Source of the DNA: Paragorgia papillata
Taxonomy: Eukaryota; Cnidaria; Anthozoa; Scleralcyonacea; Coralliidae
Direction: 5' to 3'
Length of the DNA: 64,000 nucleotides
Assembly: GCA_035771165.1 (NCBI GenBank)
Contig: JAWNZC010000348.1
Span: 2,964,501-3,028,500 of the forward strand
The notes under the pieces are model-generated. The model saw only the letters and a program-made list of their open reading frames with translations, did no database searches and had not been told where the DNA came from. Shown here piece by piece: positions 3,301 to 36,078 of the stretch. Position numbers and translations under genes: made by a program. Each line of letters begins with the position of its first letter. The stretch's first letter is position 1.

Positions 3301-4266
3301 ATGCGAATGAAAAGGTTACTCAACAGTGTTTTTAATCCTTTCACGCATGACTTTTTCCGAGACTTCTCCCCTTGGCGAGTAAAATCATCTGGCGTTAGAC
3401 AGTAAAAAGATAAAGTTGTTCAAGTTATTTAATGACCCCACGGAACGTTTTTGTTTTTCTATACGCGAGATTTGAACTTATTGAGAGTCAACTGCATGTT
3501 TGTTAGTTTTGGAGTATGATTTTTTTTATTGATATTTTTAGGTCGTCGAAGCTGCTGGATGTATTTTAGAAGATATTTTTGAGGAACTTGATTACCCAAT
3601 TTCAGCAAGAAATGAAGACTTACGAGATATAGGTTAGTTAAAAGTGTTTTTATATATATATTACAAAACAAATACGCCATACTTGTCGTGACGTTTTATT
3701 TTCGCAACTAGTATCCTTCCCTTTATTCGGTAACGTTTTATTTTCACTGATTTTCGCAACTATAGTATACTTCTCTTTATTCAGTAACGTTTTGTTTACA
3801 CTGACTTTCGCATTTAGTATACTTTAATAATTCCCTCTCTTTGGTAACGCTTTGTTTTTACTAGTTTTCTCAACGTTTCTCCACTTCCCTCGTTGTCGTC
3901 TTGTTTTCATTGATTTTCGCAATATATATATATATATATATATATATACTATAAGTGGGCTTACCTCAAATGTTGATTGTCGCTACTGTCAGTTTCACGC
4001 TGGGCGATCTTCAGCCGCCTGAAGATCGCCCAGCGTGAAACTGACAGTAGCGACAATCAACATTTGAGGTAAGCCCACTTATAGTATATTCGCTCTATCT
4101 TTACGGTACTGAGCACTTTTCGATATTTCGCGAACAACACTTTGTTTGTTTGTTTGTTTGTTTGTTTGTTTGTTTGTTTGTTTGTTTGTTTGTTTGTTTG
4201 TTTGTTTGTTTGTTTGTTTGTTTGTTTGTTTGTTTGTTTGTTTGTTTGTTTGTTTGTTTGTTTGTT

Positions 4267-4638: not shown

Positions 4639-4700
<62 letters not shown>

Positions 4701-5406
4701 CAATCTACAGACACGGTGTTTCGCTGTACAACAGCTCATCAGTGTAGCTTGGAACAATCTGAATGAACTTCATCAATTACTTATACACATGCGATCGTCG
4801 GTGACAACCGCATGTGGGACAGCATCGGTGAAATACATTCAGATAGCGTGAAGTGCGCATGGGCCCAGAGTGCTCAAACTTCCACAAGGGTAGTGAGCGT
4901 TGCATTATCGCTAATAGGTACCCACGGCAACTTCACAGAGTGCTCAACAACACCGAAGTAAAGGAGCGTACATAGTTCAATCTACAGACACGGTGTTTCG
5001 CTGTACAACAGCTCATCAGTGTAGCTTGGAACAATCTGAATGAACTTCATCAATTACTTATACACATGCGATCGTCGGTGACAACCGCATGTGGGACAGC
5101 ATCGGTGAAATACATTCAGATAGCGTATATATATATATATACAATACCCTGGTTGCTATGCGTGTTTTCATTGGTTGTTGGCCATGATCTATTAGAGGAC
5201 AGACACATGGTCACGTCAGATCACGTCAGCTGACTTGCTTTTTTCCTTTTTTGTTCTTACCACGTTGTGACGTCATCTGTGCATCTATAACTGAACAGAC
5301 AACGGCAAAAAGGAATCTATTTGTTAAATATATATATATAAATTTTCAAGAGGAACTTTATTTAATCTTCAATTCAATTCACAACGTTTCGGGGTCTAGC
5401 CCCTTC

Positions 5407-5449
<43 letters not shown>

Positions 5450-8400
5450 TATAAGTGAGTTTGGGAAAATACAAAGTATGAAGTATAGTTTTACCTTAAA
5501 GTCTTCGCTACCAGAGGTTTCACCCTAAACGGGATCAGAGGTTTCACCCGTTTAGGGTGAAACCTCTGGTAGCGAAGACTTTAAGGTAAAACTATACTTC
5601 ATACTTTGTATATATATATATATATATACAATATCAATTTTGGGGCGGGGGTATTACCGCGTTTTTGTCCATTGTATAACTTTGTTACTGAGCGTTCAAA
5701 AAACTTCTATTTCCTTTTTCTCTTGCAGACACTACAATAGATAGCAACAGCATTGTGTCAAATCTCGGCGTAGTTCCCGATCCTCTTACATATGACAGCA
5801 TGTTTAATCCTGAAATAACGAGTCAAGGCTCTGGTTCATACATGCATTTTCGAAACTCGGAAAAGTTTCGCTTTCCAGCATGTTACAGAGTTTTGATTTG
5901 GATTGGTTCCATAGCAACGTCGGTGGTCGCTGCTTATTTAGCCGTAAAATTAACGAACAGGTATGTGTTAATTCTGGCATCTAGGGTTAGTCAGAGTAAA
6001 ATACTAAAATGGAATTCAGGGTTGAGAAGGGTTAAAGTGTTCTGAGTTAATCTGAAAAGTATATTACTAATATTAACATCTTAGATTCAGAGTTTCATCG
6101 GATGGCCTGAGCTTGTATATCCGATCATATAGTTCCTAGAATTAAATTGTCTGGAAAAGCTGCCGAAGTCTTTGCTAATTCTACGTTTTGGTTAACGTTT
6201 GTGCACTTTCACGCTTGCTGAACACATTGTATTCTTGGTATAATGAAGCAATCAGCAAATAGCATGTAGCCTTGCTGTATAAATATTAATGAACGTAAAA
6301 CAAAAGATTTGTGCACTTTTAGACCCCCTCAACATAAATTACAGCACATTGCCAGCCGCTTTTAATTCTAGACAATTTAATTCTAGGGACGATATATAAC
6401 ATGTAGGGCGACTTAGGGGCTGTACATATGAGGCGGGCTAGCCCGGTTACCAGGCTGCATGGTTTTATGTCACGAAAATCTTATTACAACTATTTGAGAA
6501 ATTCAGAATGATATAAGCAAAGCAGAATTGGCTTCGCTTTTCTGTAAAATATAGCACACAAAGTATTCTAATTCTTTATTACAGTCATAAAAAGATTTTC
6601 GTGACTTAAAATCAACCCGGTAACTAGCCCGCCTCGTATGAACGGTCTCTTACATTGTAAGTAATACAAGTATAAGTATTATTATATGGCTGGGCTTGTT
6701 TTCGGGTCATTACGCCAAACGGCGCACGCTGATTGGTTGCTGAGAGGTTCGGAAAAAGCCGTAATGCCGTAGGGCATTACGTCCTTTTTAATGACCTACA
6801 AGTTTTGGCGGGAAAATTACTGAGTTGATTTGAATGAAAATAAAAGCGAATTAGATATATTCGTTGGAAAATTTTGAACAATAATACGTCCTGAAACATC
6901 AGTGTTTCTTTTTATAAAAACTTCTTATTTAAAAGCGCGAAAAATAAAAGCCTATTAAACAGGTGTAAACATGAAGCAAAACGAACAAGCTCAAAAGTAA
7001 GAACTAAAGTGAACAGCGACACCTGATCAAGACAAACGTAGAACTAAAAACAGATAAAAAAAACGAAACCAAAAGCCATATAATAAAAGGCTTATTAACC
7101 TCGTTTTCTCGGTCTGTACGGGGAAGTATTTGCTCTCGCTCGGTCTGTACGAAAACCTCAGGCAAATACTTTCCCGTACAAACCTCGAACCCGGTTAATA
7201 AGCTTTTAATAATGCAAGTATTATGCTATGATCAAGTATATACTTGCCACATTTCAGCGTCTATATAGTTATTTTTTATCATTCTTTGACCAGTAACTTG
7301 ATTTAGTACATCGTGTTTGTATTTAGATTCGATATGTCGACACTGACCTGCTATGTACAAAGTGTGTTGTGGTCTTTTCTCTTTTCATTTTGCGTATTTC
7401 AACCTTTTCAAGTAAGTTATGTAAATACATTGCACAGCACGTATAGCGCTAATGTGGTAGTTTCAGGATGCACATACTAGTTGTACTAGTAACACATATA
7501 CCAGTACTTAATCAACTTGAAGTGTTAAACATTGAAATATTGCGTTTTTACTAGCAAGATAAATTATCCGATAAATTAGAATCTCAAAGAAAACCTGGGG
7601 GGAGGGTCCTTGAATACTCTATTGCTTTTTCCTGCCATTCAGGCACTGTGTTGTTCTTTACTTAGGCACTTGTCGTTACAGTCGTTGGTGTACTGCACGA
7701 GTATTTCGTTTTTCATGTGTCTGCTATTGACGACCCTATAACTGAAAGTGGAGGAATGCCAGTGGTGATAAGTGACTATATGCATACCAGCAGCACGGAG
7801 CGAAATTTTGAAAACGTAAGTTCTAGCTTCAAACCAAATAGCTGAAATTATTTTTTTCAACAAGCGGTCCGGAGAGTACGGACGTCGCAGTCTTAAGGCT
7901 AGTTTCCACTCAGGAAAATTGTCCGCAGGATAGGAACGGACAGGAAAGTTTCTTTTGTGTTAAAGTCATTAGTTCCGACCGAGAGCTCACAAGACAAAGA
8001 AAACTTTCCTGTCCGTTCCGGTCCTGAGGAAGATTTTCCTGAGTGGAAACTAGCCTTAAAACCACCCAACTGACCCAAAAGAAGCTAAAAACTGCAGAAA
8101 ATGTTAAATTTTAGACAAACAAAGAAAAAATAAATACACTATTTACTAAACATAGTCGGTCTGTACTTGACTGCGCGGACCTCGATCGGCTTGGTCCATA
8201 TAGTCAAGACTTTGGGCAACATTTTCCCAGTAGCTACGGACCTCTGTACGAGTAGACCAGTATGGTAAATAACATATATATCTTTTATACTAAAAGAAGA
8301 AACTTACACAATCGAATGTTTGAGTAAAATTGATTATGATTTCTGCATATTTCAATTATGTCGATTTAGGCTATGTATAAAAAGTCATTGTATCTGAAAT

Positions 8401-35449: not shown

Positions 35450-36078
35450 CAGTGGAACCCCGCCATACGACCACGCCGTTAATATACGACCACCTCGTTA
35501 TTACGACTGAATACATCCTAAGTAGTGTAATACGACCACGCCGTTAATATACGACCACCTCGTTATTACGACTGAATACATCCTAAGTGGTGTAATACGA
35601 CCACCCCGTTATTACGACTGAATACATCCTAAGTAGTGTAATACGACCACCTCGTTATTACGACTGAATACATCCTAAGTAGTGTAATACGACCACCTCG
35701 TTATTACGACTGAATACATCCTAAGTAGTGTAATACGACCACCCCGTTATTACGACTGAATACATCCTAAGTAGTGTAATACGACCACCTCGTTATTACG
35801 ACTGAATACATCCTAAGTAGTGTAATACGACCACCTCGTTATTACGACTGAATACATCCTAAGTAGTGTAATACGACCACCTCGTTATTACGACTGAATA
35901 CATCCTAAGTAGTGTAATACGACCACCCCGTTATTACGACTGAATACATCCTAAGTAGTGTAATACGACCACCTCGTTATTACGACTGAATACATCCTAA
36001 GTAGTGTAATACGACCACCCCGTTAATACGACCACATTTTTTTGGCCCGACGGTGGTCGTATTAACGATGTGCCACTG
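35450..36078. mobile_element. pogo/Tigger-like MITE with 46-bp tandem interior
   Basis: Ends CAGTGGAACCCCGCC... and ...GATGTGCCACTG with TA on both flanks (35448-35449, 36079-36080). The TIR word ATACGACCACC recurs because about ten 46-bp units (AATACGACCACCTCGTTATT... CATCCTAAGTAGTG) fill the interior. No transposase frame. Confidence 0.88.

Follow-up and report, generated by a model that had tools for sequence, protein, structure and literature searches.

Target-primed reverse transcription at (TA)n as the probable route of spread of a hammerhead retrozyme family in Paragorgia papillata

The genome of the cnidarian Paragorgia papillata contains a new, very numerous family of metazoan non-LTR retrozymes, itself a known kind of element. 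The copy described here lies in a stretch of 64,000 nucleotides (hereafter, the window; assembly GCA_035771165.1, contig JAWNZC010000348.1, positions 2,964,501 to 3,028,500), where the whole insertion occupies positions 4692-5126 on the minus strand, with the RNA 3' end at the left; its 435 bp amount to 1.57 times a unit of 277 bp. The flanking (TA)n tracts, which an earlier sequence-only reading of this DNA omitted, are the insertion target. Probably, the family spreads as a metazoan non-LTR retrozyme by target-primed reverse transcription at (TA)n, from antisense transcripts and circles, with the enzyme of a Penelope-like element (PLE) as the likely machinery.

Under this mechanism, minus-strand (antisense) transcripts would cut themselves at the hammerheads, and the 277-nt RNA would be re-ligated into circles. 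At the target, the free 3' end of a nicked (TA)n strand would pair with UAUGUA, which lies 12 nt beyond the cut, and reverse transcription from UAUGUA would cross the joined cut site immediately, a crossing that can be read from the joints. Copying may continue for more than one lap, given that multiples of the unit are observed and that the putative template is a circle. It would halt at variable points, and the product would be attached to the opposite side of the tract. A hammerhead-bearing PLE of the same genome would most likely supply the enzyme, a view based on the shared target, on the common order of hammerhead and then start, and on published internal initiation. The question that this family addresses is how animal retrozymes re-enter DNA, and by whose enzyme. 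Ordinary as a kind, it is informative on mechanism, as its joints reveal start, target and template continuity.

The window copy and its hammerheads

At its fixed end, the insertion meets a (TA)n tract (4647-4697, AT x25.5) whose last six letters, TATATA (4692-4697), are the putative primer; these first six bases of the insertion may be target-derived and not part of the element. The two hammerhead copies lie on the minus strand at 4698-4755, on the RNA 3' side, with a predicted cut between 4710 and 4709, and at 4975-5032, on the RNA 5' side, with a predicted cut between 4987 and 4986; both cut positions agree with those given previously. The two cuts would release a 277-nt RNA (4710-4986, minus strand) that is strongly self-paired by energy folding (-96.2 kcal/mol, z -4.6 against 200 shuffles). 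Between the units lies the inner joint, TACATA on the plus strand and UAUGUA in the RNA (4969-4974, minus strand), the proposed annealing site of the (TA)n primer. The variable end adjoins a second (TA)n tract (5126-5141), the RNA 5' truncation point being unit position 158.

Positions 4695-4849 equal 4972-5126 letter for letter. The direct repeats had been described as 154 bp long and offset by 277 bp; the offset stands, and the identical length is 155 bp. In-register comparison at the 277-bp offset extends over 158 nt at 99%, the sole difference being 4694 T vs 4971 C, a letter that proves informative on the joints (below), and the identical units fit the proposal that the copy is young. The description of a retrozyme-like dimer was apt in its first part; the insertion is a 5'-truncated 1.57-mer and not a dimer in the LTR style. 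As had been claimed, it is non-coding: the only stop-to-stop frames of at least 55 aa that touch 4692-5126 are of 64 and 85 aa, and none is long enough for the reverse transcriptase (RT) and GIY-YIG open reading frame of a PLE. The assignment of the surrounding DNA to a polycystin intron is not confirmed: PKD_channel has 69 matches in the genome and 0 in the window, and a Pfam scan of 13 distinct window frames yielded no family over the cut-off. The (TA)n flanks would mask any target duplication at this copy. No empty allele was seen among the 40 of 1371 flank-search candidates that were scored, in a search crowded by a dispersed repeat.

This neighbouring repeat (5142-5327, plus strand) returned 1371 first-look candidates in the genome. 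In nine other fetched copies its left end is also preceded by a TA tract, with no retrozyme in the 75 nt shown, and a TA tract followed by the repeat without a retrozyme is likely the state before insertion. Further inserts accompany TA tracts in the window. At 5328-5441, two (TA)n tracts enclose a short insert on the minus strand, in which GAAACG follows a GGGG-CUAGA-CCCC hairpin and which by its sequence would resemble the 3' end of a 5'-truncated, PLE-type element whose hammerhead is damaged. Two perfect palindromes, at 3944-4089 and 5469-5611 (arms of 71 and 65 bp, 100% complementary, spacers of 4 and 13 nt), both adjoin (TA)n tracts and are fold-back or MITE-like inserts. Elsewhere in the window, a 46-bp tandem array spans 35549-36032 (10.5 copies, 97% matches).

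On the minus strand, each hammerhead copy reads GUUC-CAAG-CUACA-CUGAUGA-GCUGU-UGU-ACAGC-GAA-ACA-CCG-UGU-C^UGUAG-AUU-GAAC. Both are of type I with all core bases (CUGAUGA, GAA and C17), a stem II of 5 bp with a UGU loop, a stem III of 3 bp, and a stem I of 5 bp with 4 bp beyond an internal loop, which bears out the earlier description of two full minus-strand hammerheads with every core base and all three stems. With both strands scanned, a motif finder that combines the core with the three stems returned 2 sites in the window, against none in 300 windows generated by a first-order Markov model. The bare core pattern CTGATGA..GAAA is at chance level in the window (3 matches vs 1.24 expected; 13 of 100 shuffles reach 3). 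The covariance-model check that had been suggested did not come out in favour either: an Rfam search of the window gave no match at the gathering score, the best hammerhead being RF00008 at 16.1 bits and E 1.8. Nor is the hammerhead the structure preferred by energy folding. With these three approaches unsupportive, the case for the ribozyme rests on the core with its stems and on the family. In a circular fold of the 277-nt RNA, the hammerhead is hidden in the best structure, and forming its pairs would cost 6.8 kcal/mol; in this model, the hidden fold is a possible way of keeping circles closed.

Variation in the ribozyme can be gauged from 53 units, drawn from the BLAST-found loci and the window, with the ribozyme letters counted outside the unit-cutting anchor. 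The ribozyme part has 8 variable letters in 2035 and the rest of the unit 163 in 9530, so that the former is about four times less variable, and across the 12 core positions a single letter in one unit deviates. A diverged subfamily (L077, L078) keeps the core and stems I and III and has a different, longer stem II. Its hammerheads, at 1411-1492 of L077 and 1402-1486 of L078, combine the long stem II with a palindromic stem III, ACACGUGU; that of L077 is isolated between TA tracts and has the same GAAC end.

The family and its two kinds of end

A 49-nt ribozyme stretch has 5,786 matches with at most 3 mismatches in the searched assembly (617.9 Mb, 473 contigs) and 0 for the reversed control, in accordance with the prediction that relatives would occur in the same genome. 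The unit is exactly 277 long in 24 of the 31 complete units that precede another unit. The family has the features of metazoan non-LTR retrozymes, namely a type I core, a tandem unit within 150-450 bp, dispersal, lack of coding capacity and self-pairing. Of the marks of plant LTR retrozymes, type III hammerheads within LTRs are absent, the hammerhead being of type I and no LTR-like fixed pair of ends being present among 46 complete insertions; any 4-bp duplication would be masked by the (TA)n flanks. The largest BLAST-found loci exceed four units (L013, L015). L025 (G000:C286:21774-31131) is a long array of the 277-bp unit with roughly 3.4% difference between units, some of which were left unsplit; a retrozyme cluster occupies 417-431 kb of C1; and head-to-head pieces occur in L096, L102 and L133. 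IMG/VR held 0 exact matches to a 38-nt ribozyme stretch, in a search from which records near the window's genome were possibly excluded.

On the plus strand, the fixed end consists of (TA)n followed by GTTCAATCTACAG, at the RNA 3' side, and sits 12 nt past the predicted ribozyme cut. The exact joint of (TA)5 with GTTCAATCTACAG occurs 2,791 times in the genome and 0 times in the control. With 0-2 letters permitted between TATATATAT and GTTC, the count becomes 2,830, which leaves at most 39 joints with another spacing or letter; the one such joint among the first 100 listed is a point change. Only 15 (TA)n joints in the genome keep the C of the RNA hexamer, and the exact inner-joint sequence, GAGCGTACATAGTTCAATCTACAG, occurs 2,295 times. 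As a baseline, (TA)5 follows 0.34% of window positions.

The joints can also be counted from the ribozyme outwards. Among 100 listed exact ribozymes, 44 follow (TA)5, 38 follow the exact inner joint and 18 have another context. At 71 ribozyme ends, from 66 fetched loci and the window, none of them selected by the TA joint, there are 35 in-phase TA joints, 28 inner TACATA joints, 8 others and none out of phase. In a set of 52 insertions, GTTC is directly preceded by TATATA at 51 of 52 outer joints and by TACATA at 31 of 31 inner joints; 19 of these insertions come from loci selected via the TA joint, and the original BLAST query began with TATATA. This set leaves out L011 and L024 (duplicate loci of L010 and L014), L017, L025, L029 and L038 (complex, array or atypical), L085, L089, L092 and L101, and the second pieces of L099 and L102. 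Its counts are cleaner than those of the whole family because the deviants of L017, L029 and L025 are left out: outer joints other than TATATA occur in L017, L029 and L036, the last being the sole exception within the 52, and the inner joints of the L025 array are TACATA in 30 of 35 cases, the remaining 5 never being TATATA.

The simplest reading of this difference is that TATATA would represent target letters and TACATA template letters, copied from UAUGUA. The 3' end of (TA)n could pair with UAUGUA through five normal pairs and one G-T wobble; a phase-locked nick would produce identical joints.

The opposite end is variable. It was studied in a sample of 40 loci, about every fifth of 100 listed joints from two starting points, with one sampled joint a place off this scheme. 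These loci provided 54 pieces, of which 8 were dropped as cut by the fetched stretch or not starting at unit 1; they include segmental duplicates (C1 clusters), so that the counts are not all independent. The 46 complete insertions span 0.07-2.79 units, 33 of them being below one unit, and in 31 of the 46 (TA)4 lies within 6 nt on the variable side. Ends near the cut (unit 14-24) show no excess, with 2 of 46 vs 1.8 expected evenly. Ten of the 46 end at unit 199-219 vs 3.5 expected evenly, some of these loci being duplicates; the zone may reflect a reverse-transcription stop, a transcript start or TA microhomology. Together, the fixed and variable ends present a picture of what would be target-primed reverse transcription with early stops, on a template unbroken at the cut.

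Template, enzyme and alternative explanations

Two simpler schemes are ruled out. An LTR-style dimer is incompatible with copies of 0.07-2.79 units that have one end in common only. Nor can a linear monomer released by self-cutting have served as template, since copying starts 12 nt beyond the cut, only 12 nt from the 5' end of such a molecule, and then crosses the cut; the insertion ends are not in excess at the cut either (2 of 46). The joints show that the template RNA was continuous across the ribozyme cut. A circle and an uncleaved oligomer are both unbroken there, and the joints fit either. Units of the same insertion differ on average by 1.03% (median 0.51%; 17 multi-unit insertions, with the same loci left out as for the joint counts) vs 2.42% with shuffled labels, a value as low being reached in 0 of 2000 shuffles; a smaller, earlier set, which omitted L011, L024, L025 and L029, gave 1.33% vs 2.47%, 0 of 5000. 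A circle predicts such likeness, and an oligomer from a homogeneous source predicts it equally. Unit types are mixed in L013 (unit 4), L016, L039 and L041, and such insertions would need template switching or mixed oligomers, not a single circle.

These data bear on the alternative that uncleaved multimeric transcripts of arrays are inserted at (TA)n by target priming, the hammerhead being unneeded for mobility. Arrays such as L025 exist, unit types are mixed, and only 16 of 28 units find their nearest relative within the same insertion, with ties counted; moreover, hammerhead mutants of an Anolis PLE inserted equally in vitro, and unprocessed RNA was deemed the main substrate (PMC11167929). 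Against this stand the stronger conservation of the ribozyme than of the rest of the unit, and the difference of roughly 3.4% between L025 units, compared with 0-1.23% in 9 of 13 multi-unit insertions (1.87-5.67% in the other four). We regard this explanation as rather unlikely. That the family is an ordinary satellite spread by unequal crossing-over, with a relic hammerhead, could be suggested by extended arrays, L025 and the cluster at C1 417-431 kb among them; the dispersal of copies by the thousand, with one end exact and the other variable, the predominance of insertions below one unit (33 of 46) and the conserved ribozyme make this very improbable. It is equally hard to credit that the hammerhead is an inactive chance resemblance. 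Its scores below the Rfam cut-offs, the unfavourable energy folding and the chance-level bare core would be in keeping with that, but all core bases and three stems together occur in 0 of 300 random windows, one core letter deviates in 53 units, and the L077/L078 subfamily keeps the core and stems I and III.

As for the enzyme of the proposed target-primed reverse transcription, PLEs are the leading candidate on sequence grounds. The genome has at least 104 GIY-YIG matches with E no higher than 0.001, from a scoring of 150 of 540 candidates. RVT_1 and GIY-YIG, together the mark of PLEs, share one open frame in L071; in families A (L057, L065), B (L056) and C (L074), the scanned frames carry GIY-YIG alone. 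For (TA)n landing, we compared the ends of these three families and of the neighbouring repeat at 5142-5327. In family A, a minimal hammerhead follows the endonuclease, and copies terminate on the 3' side at one of two separate points: 69 nt beyond the hammerhead cut, after a short AC-rich hairpin (13 of 22 copies), or 44 nt later, at 113 nt (9 of 22). (TA)5 lies in the next 20 nt in 17 of 22 copies. Family B ends 67 nt past the cut of its minimal hammerhead, with (TA)n in 2 of the 3 copies first seen and 5 exact (TA)5 joints in the genome. Family C, considered as a further case, is unsupported, with no long (TA)n at its end. The (TA)n target alone is indecisive for a PLE, the landing site not being private to retroelements, since the neighbouring repeat also meets TA tracts. 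As read from the joints, the retrozyme has the Penelope-like trait of an internal start near a hammerhead at AT-rich DNA; in its internal start it works like a PLE, and it is not a member of that group. Separately, words of the retrozyme unit turn up within about 1.5 kb in 7 of the 30 PLE loci (L047, L049, L051, L052, L054, L065, L071), whereas a rough calculation from 5,786 ribozymes per 618 Mb predicts about one. Two of the seven, L051 and L052, seem to be duplicates, the match is weak for L047 (at the edge) and L054 (two words), and the common words are read as adjacent retrozyme pieces.

The mobilising enzyme might instead be a LINE-type reverse transcriptase. A fixed 3' end with a variable 5' end is also LINE-like, and Nematostella repeats have been reported with 15-bp LINE-like duplications (PMC4918200); on the other side, the RNA-internal start, the (TA)n target and the hammerhead upstream of the start are common to two PLE families here, and we consider the LINE explanation doubtful. 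Returning to PLEs, we offer a tentative extension, less likely than not: the hammerhead, found just ahead of the copying start in PLEs and retrozymes, may be a docking mark of Penelope-type reverse transcriptases, the PLE protein holding its intact or re-ligated fold and a (TA)n primer being placed directly behind stem I. Retrozymes would then be minimal PLE parasites, reduced to a ribozyme and a landing hexamer carried by a ring, and would normally move by target-primed reverse transcription in rolling-circle mode.

Relation to known retrozymes and Penelope-like elements

Metazoan type I retrozymes have been described; circular forms were demonstrated in coral, mussel and axolotl, and PLEs are put forward as strong candidates for mobilizing the elements (PMC7229834). 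In the parts of that paper (Cervera and de la Pena 2020) used here, target duplications exceed 4 bp when present and no start site is reported; the words 'microsatellite' and 'junction' are absent from its text. Within the sections drawn on here, a 2020 review describes the repeats as lacking a conserved motif that would reveal which autonomous element moves them (PMC7761336), and the listed titles and abstract openings of openly licensed papers name no (TA)n joint or internal start for retrozymes. PLEs have been reported to favour simple AT-rich targets and to form head-to-head copies (PMC3846280). The purified Anolis PLE protein starts inside its own RNA at an AC-rich stem-loop, prefers AT-rich DNA and leaves a two-ended tail, and RNA with a dead hammerhead is still inserted in vitro (PMC11167929). 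Against this background, the present family supplies a motif: an exact start and a six-base landing site able to pair with a repeated target, at thousands of joints. The placement of the copying start behind the hammerhead, common to retrozymes and two PLE families within a single genome, also bears on why PLEs keep hammerheads.

With the metazoan non-LTR retrozymes as characterized in PMC7229834, the family shares a type I hammerhead, a non-coding tandem unit of a few hundred bp, thousands of copies, a strongly self-paired RNA and the absence of visible LTRs; unlike in the accounts given there, the target, the exact copying start and the target-pairing site are readable here. The newt and schistosome hammerhead repeats (PMC7229834, PMC4918200) differ from the many dispersed insertions with one exact end found here, which range from less than a unit to three units; joints were read for the present family only. 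Like plant LTR retrozymes (PMC4918200, PMC7229834), it has a non-coding hammerhead unit and, putatively in our case, a circular RNA intermediate. The plant elements are described as having a type III hammerhead, an LTR, PBS and PPT and 4-bp duplications (PMC4918200), whereas the present ones are of type I and have (TA)n flanks and no LTR-like pair of ends. A hammerhead upstream of an internal start and an AT-rich target are common to the family and to PLEs, including PAc of Anolis (PMC11167929). Unlike PLEs, the retrozyme has no reverse transcriptase or GIY-YIG gene; its stems II and III are fuller than those of the minimal PLE hammerhead, and its start lies 12 nt past the cut vs 67-113 in the PLE families of this genome. 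Finally, the retrozyme start can pair with its target, whereas the PAc start site is described as not homologous to its own (PMC11167929).
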